From NCBI GenBank assembly GCA_009782825.1, contig WRII01000008.1:1-64000 (forward strand): DNA of 64,000 nucleotides. Direction: 5' to 3'. Positions 43,844 to 52,024 of this stretch are shown here, piece by piece (the stretch's first letter is position 1; each line of letters starts with the position of its first letter). Source of the DNA: Peptococcaceae bacterium (lineage in GTDB: Bacteria > Bacillota > Desulfitobacteriia > Desulfitobacteriales > Syntrophobotulaceae). The position numbers and the translations under genes are program-made. The notes under the pieces were generated by a model that saw only the letters and a program-made list of their open reading frames with translations, was not told where the DNA came from and ran no database searches.

Positions 43844-44527
43844 TTAAATAGTGGTTAGCATCTCTTTAAAGGTTTTTACTATTTCACTGCCTGCTTTTTT
43901 ATCCTTGGGTTTGGGCGGTTGGACTTCGTCTGTATTATCCTCATCTGAAACTCCGTAAACTTCAAATACAGCGTATAATGCCCTATAATCGCCGTTGATT
44001 ACTTGCTTTCTAACCTGTACCAGCGTATCTAAGATATGGTCGCCTGTAGCAACGATCACGCCGTTATTTTCCTTGTCTTCATCTTCGTCTTCGTAGTCCT
44101 CGTAATCTTCATCTTCATTCCAATACGGCCCAACCTCCACAACGCAATAGATGGCGATGATGACCCTCTGCTCGCTTCTCGTTATGCGAATGCCCAAATC
44201 GTCCGCTCCGTCAAATTCGTAGGCGCATATTGACTCGTATTGTTCATCATTGGAATTGAAGGCTATGGCAAGCGTCCACCAACTATATTCTTCACTGTAC
44301 ATAACATCGTAGTATTGCCCCATCAGCTTTTCCCATCCGCCGGGAATGTCATAACCTTCAACATTGTACCTAAAGTTCACCCGCCTTGCGGTTGGGTTTG
44401 CTCTGCTGGACAGCCGAGAAACGTCTGAGCGTTCTTTTTTGCCCAATGGCTTATCCACCGCCAAAAACTCATATGATGTTGAGCTGTGATCAGATGCAAA
44501 GCCGTGCCTAATACTTAAAATCTCCAT
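43844..44527 (-). CDS. Unknown acidic protein coupled to the radical-SAM enzyme
   Basis: The ATG at 44527 has AGGAGG 9 nt upstream and lies inside the radical-SAM gene (20-bp overlap), so the two are translationally coupled. The 227 residues open MEILSIRHGFASDHSSTSYE, a very polar motif, followed by a conserved-looking globular part (EGYDIPGGWEKLMGQYYDVM) and a long Asp/Glu-rich loop (YEDYEDEDEDKENN). No family recognised. Coupling suggests it is a substrate or dedicated partner of the enzyme. Confidence 0.62.
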   Translation of the reverse strand: MEILSIRHGFASDHSSTSYEFLAVDKPLGKKERSDVSRLSSRANPTARRVNFRYNVEGYDIPGGWEKLMGQYYDVMYSEEYSWWTLAIAFNSNDEQYESICAYEFDGADDLGIRITRSEQRVIIAIYCVVEVGPYWNEDEDYEDYEDEDEDKENNGVIVATGDHILDTLVQVRKQVINGDYRALYAVFEVYGVSDEDNTDEVQPPKPKDKKAGSEIVKTFKEMLTTI

Positions 44528-45884
44528 GTATACCAACCTCCTCATTTTGCCTCAAGGGGCAAATGGGTTCTCCCCCAAGGTCATCTTCTGCAAAAAGACG
44601 GCATCCCCCGCAAAAATCCTTGGCTATGCAAGTTCCACAGGCACTATGAGCAAAAGATGCACTTTGCCTGAATTGTCGATAGTGGTTCAAAACGTCGCTG
44701 TCCCGCCATATTGTTCCTAGGGGACTAAGTGCCAAATTTCCCGCCTTGTATTCTGGCCCCACAAGTTGCGAACACGGGTACACCAAACCGTCCGGTGAAA
44801 CCGATATTATCCTGTCGCCAGCCACACATCCTTTTATTCCGGCTTTGAACGCGGCCTTATTGCCCACCTTTTTCATCATAAATGCAGATGCACAATCCAA
44901 TCTTATCATAAGATGGGGATACTGATGTTTTATGTAAAGCAACCCACCCTCAAAGGCACACCAATCGTCTTTGTTCGGGCTTTCTCTTTGCCAGCGCGTT
45001 ATATTATTTATGGGCTTGTACCGCAAGAATATTAACCGCTGGAAACCACACAAGACCATCAATTCCACCAACCGAGGCAGGTTTTGGATGGTGAAGCGCG
45101 TCATAATAAGATTTGCCCCAATAAGAACATCGGCTTTAGCGGCATAGTCAACCAATCCGCGCAACTCGGCTACGGTGTTGGTTGTGTCCATGACAAGCGA
45201 TTCTGAGCGAATTCCCACATGGAGGGATTTAACATACCGCAAGACTTCAGCGCTACGGCTGTCAAAACTATATTTCCCTGTAGTGATATGCGTTACTAAC
45301 CCCTTGTTTGTGGCATAACACACAATGTCCCTTAAATCTGACCTTAGAAACGGTTCGCCGCCCCCAATTGCCAACTGGAAAACGCTCTGTCTCGCTATAT
45401 CGTCTATTATACCGCACATAGCCGCAGTGTCCAACTCCCCACTGGAAGCATAATTTCGGGCATAGCAATCCGGGCAGTCTTCATGACAGCGGTATGTTAC
45501 CGCTAAATGGACAGTTTCAGGGGCGGAAAGTACCTTGTCGATAATTTGGGGTTTATTCCCTTCGTTGAAATTATGCTTGAAATTAGGTAGGCATTTATCT
45601 GCGATATAGGGATTTTCGGCTGTGCTTGATGTGCATATTGTAACAACATCTGTCGCTAATAGCATAGGTAGTACATTGCATGATTGTTTTCGACTCATAA
45701 GTGTGCCGGCATCTATTCGACCTGCCTGTCTTAGCCAACATAGGAATTGAAACGCCTCTCTATCTACTTCAAGCGTAGCACCTGTTTGCCTATGAAAAAT
45801 AAGCCCGCCGAAGTGTTCTTCCCTAAGCATTACATCGTCAGATATTCGCAAAAATCCGGGTTTGGGTATGGCATTGGTTATCAT
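44508..45884 (-). CDS. Radical SAM/SPASM enzyme with N-terminal PqqD-like domain
   Basis: The ATG at 45884 follows AGGAG by 8 nt (458 residues). The N-terminal ~80 residues (LRISDDVMLREEHFGGLIFH, then TLEVDREAFQFLCWL) look like a PqqD-type RiPP recognition element. The radical-SAM motif is CHEDCPDC (CxxxCxxC) with the GGGEPFL SAM-binding turn. The C-terminal SPASM region has several Cys (GCVAGDRIISVSPDGLVYPC, then CGTCIAKDFCGGC) for auxiliary clusters. This build is typical of peptide-modifying maturases. Overlap with the next gene indicates a joint function. Confidence 0.88.
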   Translation of the reverse strand: MITNAIPKPGFLRISDDVMLREEHFGGLIFHRQTGATLEVDREAFQFLCWLRQAGRIDAGTLMSRKQSCNVLPMLLATDVVTICTSSTAENPYIADKCLPNFKHNFNEGNKPQIIDKVLSAPETVHLAVTYRCHEDCPDCYARNYASSGELDTAAMCGIIDDIARQSVFQLAIGGGEPFLRSDLRDIVCYATNKGLVTHITTGKYSFDSRSAEVLRYVKSLHVGIRSESLVMDTTNTVAELRGLVDYAAKADVLIGANLIMTRFTIQNLPRLVELMVLCGFQRLIFLRYKPINNITRWQRESPNKDDWCAFEGGLLYIKHQYPHLMIRLDCASAFMMKKVGNKAAFKAGIKGCVAGDRIISVSPDGLVYPCSQLVGPEYKAGNLALSPLGTIWRDSDVLNHYRQFRQSASFAHSACGTCIAKDFCGGCRLFAEDDLGGEPICPLRQNEEVGIHGDFKY

Positions 45885-46207
45885 GTTAAAATCTCCTGCG
45901 GAGCATACAGTGGGTACATTTCTATATGATGCACAGAAGTCCTGAGGCAAAACAACAAAGTAACCTCGCCTCATCGGCAGGAAACCATTTGATAGCGTCT
46001 TGGGGTTCCGCTATATCTCATCATAATATTCAATCGCCCAATCCTTTATAGCGTTGAAGCGATCTATTTTTTCAGGCTTGATAGAAAACGCCTCAGCAAC
46101 ATGCTTCTCACTCGAACTCTTTGTTTATTGTACCATATATCTTGAAAGAGTAAACTAAAGCCCTCGACATTTTTTTGCCGTAAGCTTAGCATACTCATTC
46201 ATATTAT
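45885..46207. other. Leader region of the radical-SAM cassette
   Basis: About 320 bp between tRNA-Pro and the maturase. The only coding-like piece is at 46011-46123. A promoter is expected here, but I see no convincing one. Confidence 0.35.
46011..46123 (-). pseudogene. Coding fragment without a start codon
   Basis: A minus-strand frame reads SEKHVAEAFSIKPEKIDRFN and DWAIEYYDEI to a stop at 46011, in protein-like composition, but a stop precedes it and no start codon exists. It looks like the end of a lost gene just before the radical-SAM cassette. Confidence 0.3.
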
Positions 46208-46284
46208 TGGTCGGGGCAGAGGGATTTGAACCCCCGGCCTCCTGCTCCCAAGGCAGGCGCGCTACCAAACTGCGCTATACCCCG
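46208..46284 (-). tRNA. tRNA-Pro (anticodon TGG)
   Basis: A complete 77-nt cloverleaf: acceptor CGGGGTA with TGCCCCG, D-arm GCGC/GCGC, anticodon stem CCTGC/GCAGG with loop CTTGGGA (TGG), T-arm GGGGG-TTCAAAT-CCCTC, A73 and an encoded CCA. Confidence 0.95.
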
Positions 46285-46456: not shown

Positions 46457-47905
46457 CTAATTACACGGTACCTCCACCCAACCCTTCTTCACATTCCCCT
46501 CCACACTCTGCTCAAACAGCTCCAAAATCTGCTCCTCATCATCCGAAATCATCACCTCACGCTGCAGCGGCTCCTTCCGATCAGAACTAAAATTCGTATA
46601 ATGAAAAACATACCCCGGATACTCCTCAGACAGCTTATTCGTCTTCCAAACCAGAAACTTCTGCACCATCAGCTTCTTGCCAGACTCCTTCCTGTAAACC
46701 ACACGCTTCATGACCTCCGAAGCCGGCAGCTTCGCCGGCGCAGCCTTCCCCGCAGCCTCCGTCTCAACATAAGAAAACTCATTGATCTGTTCCAGCCGTA
46801 TATCCTCATACACAGCCCGTTTATCCTCACGAAACCGCACAAAAATCGGAAAAACCACACTGATCCCCTGTACCGTCCCCTTACGGATATACTTGCCGTC
46901 TTCAAGTCCCAGCACAGCGTTTTGAATACACCCCGTGGACGTATCAAAAAGCACATCATTGATCATCAACTCAATAATAACCTCCGGCTTAATCATATGG
47001 AACGCCACATGATTCGAATCCGTCTCAATATATTCCGAGTCAACCGTCAGCGGTTCCAACCGTTTCAGCAGCTCACTCCGGGCCTCATCGCTGAATCCGT
47101 TGCCGGTTTTGCCAATGATTTGAAACTCCCCCGGCCCGGGCATCAAAGCCAGCAGCAGCGACCGCACCTGCCCTTTGCTCTCCCCGGTTCCCTCCGAATA
47201 CCCAACTACAGCCACATCAAGAGTATACCGGGGCTTCACCTTATAAACCAGCGGCAGCTCAGTGCGCACCACCAGCCCTTCCCCTCCGCCTTGTTCGACC
47301 CATTCCGTGTAAACCGCCTTCACCTGAGACTTATTCGAACATTTGCGGCAATCCACAGGCCCACAGAGGTGCGCCCGATCAAAAATATCACTGAGTTTCT
47401 TATGAGTTTCCCCATAAGAAGCAGCCCGAAAACGCACATCATCCAGTTCCAGAATATCAAACATCGCCAACCGCAGCTTCGCCGCCTTCCCCGCATCCGC
47501 CAAAGCCGTCAGCACATGAAACACCCGGGTTCGCTCCCTCCCTTCATCCGCATAAAGCTCCGCCGGAACAACCGCCTGGCGGATACCGGCGGCCTTGAGA
47601 GCATTCACAGCATCCTCCAGACAGGCCAGCCCTGTCCGAACACGCCCGGATCGGTTAATCAAAGCCGCTTGATCCTGCTCCCCGTCAAAAAACAGGACAT
47701 TCATCTCCCCATCATACTTACGGGTCACATAAAACTCACTGCCTCCCAGGCGAAAATCAATCTGATCGCTGCTCACATTGATATAGTTTTTGCAAACATC
47801 CTTTTTATAAGAAATAGCCTTCTGGGTGCTGGCCTGATCCACAGCGTCAGCTTCGCCTTCATAATAGCCGTGCAACGGCGTCATCTTGCTTCTGTCAATC
47901 ATCAT
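46457..47905 (-). CDS. ATP-dependent DNA/RNA ligase-family protein
   Basis: The 482-residue protein shows the covalent nucleotidyltransferase motifs: I, KYDG at 63-66 (Lys that takes AMP); III, MFDILELD near 148; IV, EGLVVR at 209-214; V, YKVKPRYTLD at 221-230. An OB-fold-like segment with QVRSLLLALMPGPGEFQIIG follows. A CGPVDCRKC stretch (181-189) could bind zinc. The C-terminal ~150 residues are not part of a standard ligase. It is the last gene of a four-gene operon with a metallophosphoesterase. It is not the house-keeping NAD-dependent LigA. The preferred substrate (DNA or RNA) cannot be read from the sequence. Confidence 0.82.
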   Translation of the reverse strand: MMIDRSKMTPLHGYYEGEADAVDQASTQKAISYKKDVCKNYINVSSDQIDFRLGGSEFYVTRKYDGEMNVLFFDGEQDQAALINRSGRVRTGLACLEDAVNALKAAGIRQAVVPAELYADEGRERTRVFHVLTALADAGKAAKLRLAMFDILELDDVRFRAASYGETHKKLSDIFDRAHLCGPVDCRKCSNKSQVKAVYTEWVEQGGGEGLVVRTELPLVYKVKPRYTLDVAVVGYSEGTGESKGQVRSLLLALMPGPGEFQIIGKTGNGFSDEARSELLKRLEPLTVDSEYIETDSNHVAFHMIKPEVIIELMINDVLFDTSTGCIQNAVLGLEDGKYIRKGTVQGISVVFPIFVRFREDKRAVYEDIRLEQINEFSYVETEAAGKAAPAKLPASEVMKRVVYRKESGKKLMVQKFLVWKTNKLSEEYPGYVFHYTNFSSDRKEPLQREVMISDDEEQILELFEQSVEGNVKKGWVEVPCN

Positions 47906-47952
47906 GGCACATCACCTTCACTCCCATAGTTTGTAGATTCGCATTTGATTCT

Positions 47953-48009
47953 GCTGCAAATAGTTATTTCCGCTGCAAATAGTTATTTCCGCTGTAAATA
48001 GTGATTCAT
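47953..48009. repeat. Three 19-bp tandem repeats in the ligase operon
   Basis: GCTGCAAATAGTTATTTCC occurs twice in perfect tandem, then a third variant copy (GCTGTAAATAGTGATTCAT). They lie between the ligase gene and the 232-residue gene. The TGCAAATAGT core returns at 49417 upstream of another operon gene. Confidence 0.9.
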
Positions 48010-48024
48010 CTTACGAAGATCGAA

Positions 48025-48723
48025 TTACAGCACTTTCACTTCCATATTGGTCAAATGCAGAATCAGGCAATAGCCCTCCCCCTGGATCCGCCCTTCCAAG
48101 AACCCCCGGTATGGCTCTCCCCCCTGGGTAAGAATCAAAGGGTCATTGCCCTTTTTGCCACCGCCAATAAACATCAGCGAATCCGATTCATGTAACCCCT
48201 TCGCCATATTATACAAAAAATCATAAGTGAGTCCGCTGATATGCTTCAGCTGCAGCTTGCGCTGGAAGACAAACCTTCGGATAATAACGCTCTTGGGAAA
48301 CTTCTTCCCAGTCCACTGCACAATCGATTCCCCTGTCACATTGGACATAGCCTTGGCCAAATCCCGGCGCTCCTTTTCATTCCCCTGAGGATCCTTGATA
48401 ATCTGCGTCATATTGACACGGTAAGCAATCTTATTCTCCTGATCAAGATAAAGCTTTTGCGTCTGTGTAATCTTCTTGCCAATGACCTCCATATCAATTT
48501 CAGGATCACCAGCGATAATATCCTCCCCCATCTGCCTCAGATCATCATAGTTTTGGCTCAAGGTCTCAAAAGCCAAGGCCAGATTCTGTTTCAGCACCTT
48601 GATATTGATATACTCCTCGCCATTTTTCAGCACCCGCCTGAACCCGGACGGTTTTTTAACCGTCTCCATACACACCTGAGCATCCCGCTTTTTCTCGTTA
48701 GTTATGTTAATCGTCCTCATCAC
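48025..48723 (-). CDS. Unknown protein of the ligase operon
   Basis: The 232-residue soluble protein has a helical N-terminal half (NIKVLKQNLALAFETLSQNY) and a C-terminal half with conserved-looking motifs (YDFLYNMAKGLHESDSLMFI, GGGKKGNDPLILTQGGEPYR and GFLEGRI). I recognise no family, signal or membrane segment. It ends about 120 bp before the ligase gene, with the 19-bp repeats between, and begins 22 bp after the upstream 208-residue gene. Confidence 0.65.
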   Translation of the reverse strand: MMRTINITNEKKRDAQVCMETVKKPSGFRRVLKNGEEYINIKVLKQNLALAFETLSQNYDDLRQMGEDIIAGDPEIDMEVIGKKITQTQKLYLDQENKIAYRVNMTQIIKDPQGNEKERRDLAKAMSNVTGESIVQWTGKKFPKSVIIRRFVFQRKLQLKHISGLTYDFLYNMAKGLHESDSLMFIGGGKKGNDPLILTQGGEPYRGFLEGRIQGEGYCLILHLTNMEVKVL

Positions 48724-48744
48724 TTCACCCCTTGCTTAAAACAT

Positions 48745-49371
48745 TTAAAGCATCGCAAAATCAATATCATCGCTTTCGTCCTCATCCTCCGTATCACTGT
48801 CATCCCCCACAGCAATTTCATTGGGGCTGATAAATTCAAAGGCGTTGAGCGTCCCAATAAACATAAACAGTTCCTTATTGCCATCGATGTCCGACAGCAG
48901 CAAAAAAGCCGGCGAGGTTTCAAAGCTGTCCCTGTAACAATAGGCAAAAGTATAGATGTCGTCCCCGATCATGGCGATCAGATCAGGATCAGCCTCTTTC
49001 AAATGGTAAAAAGCCGTAATAGAGCAGTCAAGGAGCTGCTCTATACTCGCTTTTTCAGCTAACATAGTGACCTTGCCATAAGACGACGGTGTTATCACCG
49101 CATCGCAGCCATCGTTTGTGATGGTTTTAATTTGACTGCGTTCAACCCATTTTCCGTCATCTGATACCATGCCCAGACCGATACCACCCTTGGGAATAAT
49201 GATGGTACCTGAGGCGTCTGTGGAAACCAACACACATTCATTGCCCTCGTCATCAAAAGCATGTTTCTCACTCCAGCCATAGAGCTTTTTTCGATCGATT
49301 TTAATTGGTTCAACAGTAAATTCTCTGCCGTCGATGGCAAAGGCCATTTCTTTAGCCATAATTTTGCTCAC
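48745..49371 (-). CDS. Unknown protein of the ligase operon
   Basis: The 208-residue cytosolic protein begins MSKIMAKEMAFAIDGREFTV; it is beta-rich, with SGTIIIPKGGIGLGMVSDDG, and ends in an acidic tail (DDSDTEDEDESDDIDFAML). Acidic tails often mediate binding or mimic nucleic acid; nothing more specific is visible. No family recognised. The next operon gene starts 22 bp downstream. Confidence 0.62.
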   Translation of the reverse strand: MSKIMAKEMAFAIDGREFTVEPIKIDRKKLYGWSEKHAFDDEGNECVLVSTDASGTIIIPKGGIGLGMVSDDGKWVERSQIKTITNDGCDAVITPSSYGKVTMLAEKASIEQLLDCSITAFYHLKEADPDLIAMIGDDIYTFAYCYRDSFETSPAFLLLSDIDGNKELFMFIGTLNAFEFISPNEIAVGDDSDTEDEDESDDIDFAML

Positions 49372-49416
49372 TCCTTTTGCGCCCTCATCTCCATTATACT
49401 TACTATTGATTCTCCC

Positions 49417-49462
49417 TGCAAATAGTCACTTTGCAGCGCTGTGGTCACTTTGCAGCGCCGCA
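49417..49462. repeat. Inverted and tandem repeats upstream of the 208-residue gene
   Basis: TGCAAATAGTCACTTTGCA (49417-49435) is an inverted repeat with 6-bp arms. Overlapping it, two 19-bp units starting GTCACTTTGCAGCGC lie in tandem (49425-49443 and 49444-49462). They share the TGCAAATAGT core with the repeats at 47953. A shared operator or a repeat seed is possible. Confidence 0.75.
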
Positions 49463-49550
49463 GCGCAAGAGCCTCAACGCCTTTGCTGACAAGCATAAAA
49501 CCCTCCTTGCCGGTCTGCCTCCTTCCATGTCAGGATCATCTAATCAAACA

Positions 49551-50456
49551 TCACACAAAATACCCAGCCAACGCCTCAGGCCCTTTAGCCACAGTCCGGG
49601 CCACCTTCAGAACACCCTGATCATCACACTCAACACTCCACTTAATCAACGCGATGGTTCCGCTTACAATCTCAATCGATGTGACAACTTCCTTGTGCAC
49701 ACAACACCCATCATTGAAGTACCTCGATTCCCCGGGCTTTGGAAACGCCTCCAGATGCGTGTGCCCAGCGATGACCATAACATTCTCTTTGGCTGCCCAA
49801 CGAGCCAGATCTTCAGCGACAGATTTTTTCTTTTTGGGGCTGCCGGCCGCACTCAGAGGATTGTTGACGCCCACAAAGCCCAGAGGCCTCCAAACATACT
49901 GCACAAGAAAACGAGACACCTTCCAGAAATCATCGTTTAAGGGATCCACCTGATGCCCATGAAACGCATGGATTTTCCACCCTGTCTCCCGATGTTTAAA
50001 CACAAGACCCATGGGAAAGGTGATTCCGGGATACAACTCAACAGAGTGCTCCCCTTCCCCCACGTTCATATGCTCCCGAACCCATTTAGGCTTTTTCTTG
50101 ACCATGTCATGATTGCCCACAGCACAGAGGAACCGCCCCTCCTTGTACAAAGCGGCAAGGTTCTCAAAAATTTTACTGTAGGCCTCTTGGATCTGACTGA
50201 ACCTGCGAGTCTTCCAAAGCTCATCGCCGTCACCCAGCTCCACATACGTGAATCCGCCCAAGGCATAATAGTTCAGAGCCATCACATAAATATTTCTGTT
50301 TGGATAAAATACATCCGCACCACCCCCATCGCCGCGATGACAGTCACTCATGAACACCAGTTTTGACGTATCATCAAACAGCATTTCCGGGGCGCTCTCA
50401 AATACTTTGGCAATTTTTTTATACCTGATATTTTTATTCCTATTAATTAGTCTCAT
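49551..50456 (-). CDS. Calcineurin-like metallophosphoesterase
   Basis: The 301-residue protein has all metal-binding blocks: MSDCHRGDGGG (D38, H40), ELGDGDELW (about 73-81), GNHDM (114-118), HGHQVD and GHTHLEAFP. This makes it a likely phosphatase or nuclease of the UDP-2,3-diacylglucosamine pyrophosphatase-like/YfcE group, with no signal peptide. As first gene of the operon with a ligase, it could process nucleic-acid ends, as phosphoesterases do in Pnkp-type repair; this is inference from neighbourhood. Confidence 0.85.
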   Translation of the reverse strand: MRLINRNKNIRYKKIAKVFESAPEMLFDDTSKLVFMSDCHRGDGGGADVFYPNRNIYVMALNYYALGGFTYVELGDGDELWKTRRFSQIQEAYSKIFENLAALYKEGRFLCAVGNHDMVKKKPKWVREHMNVGEGEHSVELYPGITFPMGLVFKHRETGWKIHAFHGHQVDPLNDDFWKVSRFLVQYVWRPLGFVGVNNPLSAAGSPKKKKSVAEDLARWAAKENVMVIAGHTHLEAFPKPGESRYFNDGCCVHKEVVTSIEIVSGTIALIKWSVECDDQGVLKVARTVAKGPEALAGYFV

Positions 50457-50517: not shown

Positions 50518-51384
50518 TCACAATGATTTATAGGTTTCTCTCAGCGCCTCTTTCGTTTCGGAACCCTGAGTAAGATCATGATACATCTCACAGTTGCTTC
50601 TGTTGTTCGCTTGGGCCAACATGCGCACAACTCCCCGGCGGGTTATCGGCTGAAATGAATAAGGGGTATCGAATACGAATTCGACAGTCTTTCCATCAGC
50701 CAGAATAGAAACATGATCATACCCTCTCTGCCCCAAAGCCTCCACAAAAGCTTGGCGCATAGCTCTCGTCTTCAGCGTAATCCGGAACCGCGCTGTCAAC
50801 TCCTCCGGCTCTGAGAATTCGCCAAGGACAAACCCCGTCAGCCACCAATGCCTCTCCTTCCGCGTGAAAAGAACTTCATTGTTCTTCATCATGGTCATGG
50901 ACATCAACAGCTGCTCTTTTGGATCAACTGCCCGGTACAACGTATCGCCCAAGAATCTCAGAATGCCCCATACGGCTCTCTCTGACCAGCTCCCCTCCCG
51001 CCAAAACTCTCTGTCTGCCTTAGAATCTTCCTCCGCTGCATAAACGCCAATTTCGCATCCCGTGGTCATGCCATATTGACCTTTCCAGAATTCAATAAGC
51101 CAGTGTTTCCCATCGTAGTCGAAACGAATAGGCTCCGAATCAAAGATCAGGCTCATGAAAGGCGACGCCACATCATAGAACCGGCAATATCCATATTGCC
51201 TTTGCCAAGGCTCCTGAACTGAGTAGAAAATATCCTGCTCAGCATCATAAGCAAATCCTGTTTCCTCCAGCATCACTCCTTGGCGAAGGGCTTCCCCTCC
51301 CGGATGAACAAGCAAACCTTCTGAGCTGTGGAGTTCCGTTTCCTCATGTGAATCTATGGATCTTTTCTTTTTTAATAACGACAT
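50518..51384 (-). CDS. DUF4474 domain protein
   Basis: The 288-residue protein has the DUF4474 pattern: GFAYDAEQDIFYSVQEPWQR, then PIRFDYDGKHWLIEFWKGQY and GMTTGCEIGVYA. The family is widespread in Clostridia and of unknown function. The part after about residue 170 is less recognisable (TRKERHWWLTGFVLGEFSEP). No signal peptide. It lies 61 bp before the phosphoesterase start, codirectional, so it may head the same transcript. Confidence 0.85.
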   Translation of the reverse strand: MSLLKKKRSIDSHEETELHSSEGLLVHPGGEALRQGVMLEETGFAYDAEQDIFYSVQEPWQRQYGYCRFYDVASPFMSLIFDSEPIRFDYDGKHWLIEFWKGQYGMTTGCEIGVYAAEEDSKADREFWREGSWSERAVWGILRFLGDTLYRAVDPKEQLLMSMTMMKNNEVLFTRKERHWWLTGFVLGEFSEPEELTARFRITLKTRAMRQAFVEALGQRGYDHVSILADGKTVEFVFDTPYSFQPITRRGVVRMLAQANNRSNCEMYHDLTQGSETKEALRETYKSL

Positions 51385-51718: not shown

Positions 51719-52024
51719 ATGTTAACAGAAGAAAGAGCCAGTATCCTTACGGAAATCCTCAGTGCTGATGAAGCACGCGCACAGACCCTTTTGAGCCTTG
51801 ATACGAAGGAAGCCTTGAAGCAAATCAACGCACTGGGCAACGATTTCACGCTGGACGAACTGAAAGAGTACGGAAAAGCAATGGAAGCCTCTTCCGCGCA
51901 AGGCGAGTTGGATGCTGACTCCCTGGATGATGTGGCAGGCGGCATATTTCGCCCAGTGCCATTCCCCAATCCCTCTTGGAACTACTGGAAACAAAAGCTT
52001 CCCAACATCCGGCCCTGGAAATAA
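51719..52024 (+). CDS. Nif11-type leader RiPP precursor with Pro/Trp-rich core
   Basis: The 101-residue protein starts 9 nt after AGGAGG. Residues 1-75 are a Nif11-like leader: acidic helices, the signature ALGNDFTLDELKEYG, then ELDADSLDDVAGG ending in the Gly-Gly cleavage site at 74-75. The 26-residue core (76-101) has no Cys and no Thr, only one Ser, but five Pro, three Trp, one Tyr and several Lys/Arg (starting IFRPVPFPNP and ending IRPWK), so net positive. It cannot become a classical lanthipeptide. No transporter, protease or LanM lies nearby; the nearest candidate enzyme is the radical-SAM protein 6 kb away. A strong terminator follows. Confidence 0.82.
   Translation: MLTEERASILTEILSADEARAQTLLSLDTKEALKQINALGNDFTLDELKEYGKAMEASSAQGELDADSLDDVAGGIFRPVPFPNPSWNYWKQKLPNIRPWK

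Follow-up and report, generated by a model that had tools for sequence, protein, structure and literature searches.

Two predicted Ku-fold proteins encoded with a dedicated DNA ligase in a conserved three-gene operon: a probable compact end-joining system in bacteria

The first 64,000 nucleotides of contig WRII01000008.1 from a Peptococcaceae bacterium (assembly GCA_009782825.1), hereafter the window, contain four open reading frames (ORFs) that were confirmed at 46457-50456, all on the minus strand. They encode, in order, a phosphoesterase (MPE), two small proteins (U208 and U232) and a ligase (LIG; Table 1). The likely starts of U208 and U232 were set by homologue alignments. An earlier note on this DNA had described the four as one operon, an undescribed nucleic-acid repair or defence module beside a tRNA gene. 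All four reading frames are real, but the conserved unit comprises only U208-U232-LIG, and the gap of ~190 bp between MPE and U208 holds a promoter-like site. The product of this three-gene operon is most likely a hitherto undescribed machine for repairing DNA breaks.

Table 1. Features of the locus, in window coordinates
Feature	Position	Strand	Description
tRNA-Pro	46208-46284		Downstream of LIG
LIG	46457-47905	-	ATP-dependent DNA ligase, 482 aa
LIG C-terminal domain, about residues 395-482	46460-46723	-	Candidate Ku-docking domain; 52% mean column identity
LIG motif I TRKYDGE, adenylation Lys63	47705-47725	-	T61, K63, D65, G66, E67 invariant in 45 sequences
U232, predicted KuB-like subunit	48025-48720	-	ORF from GTG 48723, 232 aa; family start ATG 48720
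U208, predicted KuA-like subunit	48745-49359	-	ORF from GTG 49371, 208 aa; family start ATG 49359
Acidic tail of U208	48748-48825	-	Conserved terminal motif; proposed docking peptide
Promoter-like site TTTGCA-18-TATAAT	49393-49422	-	Just upstream of U208, past MPE; consensus scan, 10/12 matches
MPE, calcineurin-like phosphoesterase	49551-50456	-	301 aa; neighbour, judged outside the module

When 84,980 species genomes were searched with the ligase alignment, 52 loci were obtained, and profile searches of these loci found U208, U232 and LIG together in 41, with order and strand identical in 40. Co-occurrence, which the earlier note proposed to test, is real for the triad but not for MPE, which is adjacent at no other locus; the conserved operon is three genes, not four. 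Five of the 11 incomplete loci end at a contig edge, three hold U232-LIG only and three LIG only. Distances between homologues are strongly correlated from one of the three proteins to the next (Mantel r 0.86-0.92; 0/2000 permutations as high), which fits a co-inherited unit, and the genes flanking the module vary between lineages.

LIG carries a nucleotidyltransferase domain (PF01068, E 2.6e-12) followed by an OB domain (PF04679, E 5e-11), both above cut-off, and by profile it matches DNA ligases of archaea and eukaryotes (E 5e-17). The ligase motifs named in the earlier note hold in 45 homologues, where motifs I, Ia, III, IV and V and the OB domain with motif VI are invariant or near-invariant; beyond the motif I residues listed in Table 1, E209, G210, K222, K224, R359, D361 and K362 never vary, so that the invariant positions span motifs I, IV, V and VI. 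The proposal of an undescribed nucleic-acid repair module thus gains support, in that a real ATP-dependent DNA ligase is accompanied by two co-conserved proteins. LIG is without the usual N-terminal DNA-binding domain, its chain starting ~60 residues before motif I. It is also not a LigD: the ligase domains are joined to a unique C-terminal domain and no polymerase or 3'-phosphoesterase is fused to them, and the models for ligases of non-homologous end joining (NHEJ), TIGR02779 and TIGR02776, score far below cut-off. The C-terminal domain has no match in Pfam and only a weak one in the PDB (CotH, E 8e-4), which was not taken as meaningful. A WGR domain was suspected there by eye and set aside, there being no Pfam match.

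MPE is a calcineurin-like phosphoesterase as first described, at least at family level (PF00149, E 1.6e-5). Could it nonetheless act with LIG, as the core of a four-gene module for end healing and sealing in RNA repair or defence at a tRNA site? Its position upstream on the same strand and the tRNA-Pro gene downstream would suit such a scheme, but MPE homologues are unlinked to the module in every other genome. Of the 25 family genomes, 13 have such a homologue, and 10 of these 13 have no module; two genomes of the same genus carry the homologue and the module on different contigs, and no MPE homologue was found in genus g9, which has the module. At every other module locus examined MPE is absent. 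It is a bystander, next to the module in this window only, and was rejected as a module member. The tRNA fared no better, since a tRNA of any kind lies at only 4 of the 46 loci scanned, and a tRNA-linked island with a recurring accessory site was likewise rejected. LIG, with its OB domain, is moreover a DNA-type ligase, and the four proteins contain neither the kinase-phosphatase-ligase domains nor the Hen1 methyltransferase domain of the Pnkp/Hen1-type RNA repair that had been proposed. As a conserved four-gene unit this arrangement is refuted, and the scheme built on it can hardly be right.

The two small proteins were originally described as matching no family, and none was found in Pfam, NCBIfam, PHROGs or PADLOC; no Pfam family, PF02735 included, matches the 41 homologues of U208 or the 42 of U232. 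Structure prediction, which the earlier note had recommended, was more informative, with both models matching Ku in the PDB. AlphaFold2 models built from these 41-42 homologues reached a mean pLDDT of 76.8 for U208 and 73.7 for U232, and in Foldseek searches of the PDB all 50 matches listed for each protein were Ku, human chains among them (best 8v53_A, E 2.8e-5, probability 1.00, for U208; best 1jeq_B, E 3.6e-6, for U232). The alignments span almost the whole chain of both proteins, with TM-scores of about 0.4-0.47. Because Ku is heavily represented in the PDB, the 50 matches per protein are not 50 independent observations; the weight lies instead in two different proteins that, as modelled, each have no significant listed match other than Ku. 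Searched against a library of viral models, U232 gave exactly two matches under E 0.001, both annotated as phage Ku, the next standing at E 0.13. The Ku core fold is thus present in the predicted models, and fold and operon context together suggest that U208 and U232 are divergent Ku-fold proteins. Ku/LigD had been named at the outset as an analogy, and the predicted Ku folds themselves had gone unrecognised.

U208 ends in the acidic tail already noticed in the first description. Across the 41 homologues the final 30 positions hold on average 11.9 acidic residues and 0.2 basic ones, and 36 of the homologues carry the set pattern [DE][IL]DFSM[FLM] at the terminus; the window protein ends DDIDFAML. 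The tail resembles the C-terminal tip of SSB, and would be well suited as a docking peptide, perhaps for the C-terminal domain of LIG.

How does the module relate to canonical Ku and LigD in the genomes that carry it? Within the family, canonical Ku is missing from 5 of 6 module carriers as against 3 of 19 non-carriers (Fisher p 0.0055), and in the order it is present in 1 of 6 carriers as against 58 of 68 others (p 0.001). No canonical Ku was found in the window's own genome. Its only LigD-like ORF (locus L112; G000 contig C56, 18927-20165) adjoins an AAA-type ATPase gene and is cut off by the contig end about halfway along the polymerase domain; it has the look of a LigD that has decayed or been wrongly assembled. 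Among 49 carrier genomes, canonical Ku is present in 2 and a LigD polymerase in 1. In most carriers the module thus seems to take the place of canonical Ku and LigD. The same-genus genome G023 has the module plus canonical Ku with a neighbouring ligase.

LigD unites a ligase, a primase-type polymerase and a 3'-phosphoesterase. At six Acidobacteriota loci (L065, L066, L067, L119, L120 and L121) the module is accompanied by a fusion gene after LIG, directly so in five. Its archaeo-eukaryotic primase (AEP) domain matches PF22548 (up to E 1.9e-9) and has the motifs DxD and GGYHVW; the HAD-like phosphatase domain fused to it contains DLDGVLA and matches 1xpj weakly (E 2.9e-5). By analogy, these acidobacterial loci would place parts comparable to those of LigD, in separate genes, beside the two Ku-like proteins, an independent hint at function.

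Taken together, the module is quite probably a compact NHEJ system, consisting of two divergent proteins of predicted Ku fold and a dedicated ligase that is not LigD. The pairing expected of NHEJ, in which one locus encodes both an end-binding protein and an ATP-dependent ligase, is found in 41 of the 52 loci, the identity of the Ku component being fold-based. In such a system a heterodimeric ring of U208 (as KuA) and U232 (as KuB) would most likely form where DNA is broken, on the ends. LIG would be recruited through its unique C-terminal domain by the acidic tip of KuA, by the ring, or by both, and the ring may take over the role of its missing DNA-binding domain. The break would then be sealed by ATP-dependent ligation via adenylation of Lys63, and in Acidobacteriota the adjacent primase-polymerase/HAD-phosphatase could supply fill-in and end-cleaning.

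Several points weigh against this. Confidence in the AlphaFold2 models is moderate (pTM 0.53-0.61), and the TM-scores lie in the range given above. Comparison of the U208 and U232 families with 17 canonical Ku proteins by hhalign was null, as was comparison of the two family profiles with each other, and U208 and U232 profile searches of PDB sequences found no similarity to Ku. With sequence and profile methods null (the Ku profile PF02735/COG1273 is not matched), the Ku assignment is one of fold plus context, not of sequence homology. It might be supposed, then, that the small proteins are other beta-barrel scaffolds that assist LIG as a nick-sealing repair ligase, and the lack of profile similarity at any sensitivity tried, like the middling model confidence, speaks for this. 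Against it, the two proteins independently find only Ku among the significant matches listed, over nearly the full chain, and both are encoded alongside a DNA ligase in one operon; we regard the scaffold explanation as quite unlikely. The proposed two-subunit end-joining system must also accommodate three Gracilibacteraceae loci (L033, L035 and L053) with KuB-LIG and no adjacent KuA, where KuB may act alone or KuA may lie elsewhere in the genome, and three further loci (L040, L062 and L071) with LIG alone. Finally, the anticorrelation with canonical Ku was drawn from few, related and incomplete genomes; part of it could stem from relatedness, a common lifestyle or gaps in the assemblies, and the figures for the 49 carrier genomes stand without a matched base rate.

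The module is widespread but rare. It is found in at least six phyla (Bacillota, Bacteroidota, Spirochaetota, Pseudomonadota, Actinomycetota and Acidobacteriota), and one further carrier is a metagenome-assembled genome (MAG) of Syntrophobacterales. U232 is present in 6 of 25 genomes of the window's family and 6 of 74 of its order, while among sampled genomes the module occurs in 1 of 399 in the window's phylum and 1 of 396 in Bacteroidota, the single positive being in both cases the centre genome itself, and in 5 of 297 in Acidobacteriota. Several carrier MAGs bear sample labels used in termite-gut genome work (e.g., PMC7024585). This sporadic occurrence across phyla, the grouping of the window clade across phyla and the match of the acidobacterial polymerase domain to the primase family of TOTE conflict systems could instead point to Ku-like clamps and a ligase that serve conflicts or mobile elements (defence, counter-defence or element circularisation) and not general chromosomal repair. 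A defence role had also been suggested in the earlier note. However, PADLOC gave no match for the four window proteins, no defence neighbourhood was seen, no matches were found in the viral contigs, phages or plasmids searched, neighbourhoods change between lineages, and the module is anticorrelated with canonical Ku in the family; a conflict or mobile-element role is accordingly judged unlikely.

Some module copies are irregular. The U232 or LIG reading frame is interrupted at L059, L061, L063 and L065, and at L063 the U208-U232 pair is also inverted, which suggests either module turnover or assembly error. The LIG at L062 (10001-11470) is a very divergent paralogue (~35% identity) without neighbouring Ku-like genes, and the Alistipes MAG that holds it also has a complete module (L046).

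Other features of the window were noted around the operon. Short direct repeats of the type ACTATTTGCAGCGGAAATA lie between U232 and LIG (47951-48012), and a related CTATTTGCAG stretch precedes U208 (49397-49465). Upstream of MPE is a gene for a DUF4474 protein (PF14751, E 8e-79; 50518-51384, minus strand), with a terminator-like hairpin between the two (50511-50484). Further away are a small plus-strand ORF resembling a Nif11-type leader peptide and containing DDVAGGIF (51719-52024) and a minus-strand gene for a radical SAM/SPASM protein (44508-45974) whose best matches are peptide-maturase and heme-pathway families. These last two are ~6 kb apart and possibly ribosomal-peptide related.

If the end-joining assignment is correct, it has consequences for how bacterial NHEJ is surveyed and understood. 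Genomes are scored NHEJ-negative when sequence searches find no Ku, a verdict that would be wrong for carriers of the module. A Ku of two subunits in bacteria would be relevant to how the asymmetry between Ku70 and Ku80 arises, and the module as a whole to end joining without LigD. A three-gene end-joining cassette of ~3 kb might also find use in laboratory bacteria, for genome editing and the repair of double-strand breaks. The literature describes canonical Ku/LigD systems, including those of multi-Ku Streptomyces and Sinorhizobium (PMC5124664, PMC7719229, PMC11936186), and searches for divergent or heterodimeric bacterial Ku, Ku-like defence and AEP-linked NHEJ returned only canonical systems from a literature in which subscription journals were mostly uncovered. 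The module would seem to be a new form of bacterial NHEJ, although a prior description is possible. We lean slightly towards the more specific proposal of a second bacterial NHEJ lineage, with an obligate Ku heterodimer outside COG1273, its own ligase (in Acidobacteriota also its own polymerase-phosphatase) and an acidic Ku tip, similar to the SSB tail, that docks the ligase through a new domain.

Set beside known systems, the resemblance to phosphoesterase-ligase clusters is slight. Pnkp/Hen1 RNA repair and the ligase-associated Lhr/phosphoesterase clusters share with this locus a phosphoesterase near a ligase, in this window only; the phosphoesterase is not conserved with the module, and there is no kinase, methyltransferase, helicase or exonuclease partner. 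Canonical bacterial NHEJ, with its Ku homodimer (PF02735/COG1273) and LigD, is closer. As there, Ku-fold protein(s), here by predicted fold, are encoded with an ATP-dependent DNA ligase, the distribution is sporadic, and in Acidobacteriota a primase-type polymerase and a phosphatase-like domain are also at hand. Unlike canonical Ku, the module has two different Ku-like proteins without sequence similarity to COG1273, and its Ku tail is acidic where the canonical tail is basic. Its ligase has a C-terminal domain of its own and is not fused to polymerase and phosphoesterase (POL/PE) domains, and the acidobacterial polymerase belongs to another primase family, with a phosphatase of the HAD type.

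Bacteria with several Ku proteins are known, namely Streptomyces (kuA, kuB and kuC) and Sinorhizobium, and heterodimers have been suggested for them (PMC5124664). Since kuA, kuB and kuC already name those canonical genes, other names will be needed for the genes of the module. The Ku proteins of these bacteria are paralogues of the canonical Ku core that were found by sequence, whereas the module pair is separate, was missed by sequence searches and is nearly always encoded with one ligase. Eukaryotic Ku70/Ku80 and DNA ligase IV offer a further parallel, in that the module has a predicted two-subunit Ku and LIG is nearest to archaeal and eukaryotic DNA ligases. Its proteins are simpler in build, however: U208 and U232 do not have the vWA, SAP or Ku80 C-terminal domains, and LIG, in which the N-terminal DNA-binding domain and BRCT repeats of ligase IV are missing and for which no XRCC4/XLF partner was seen, ends in a domain of its own.

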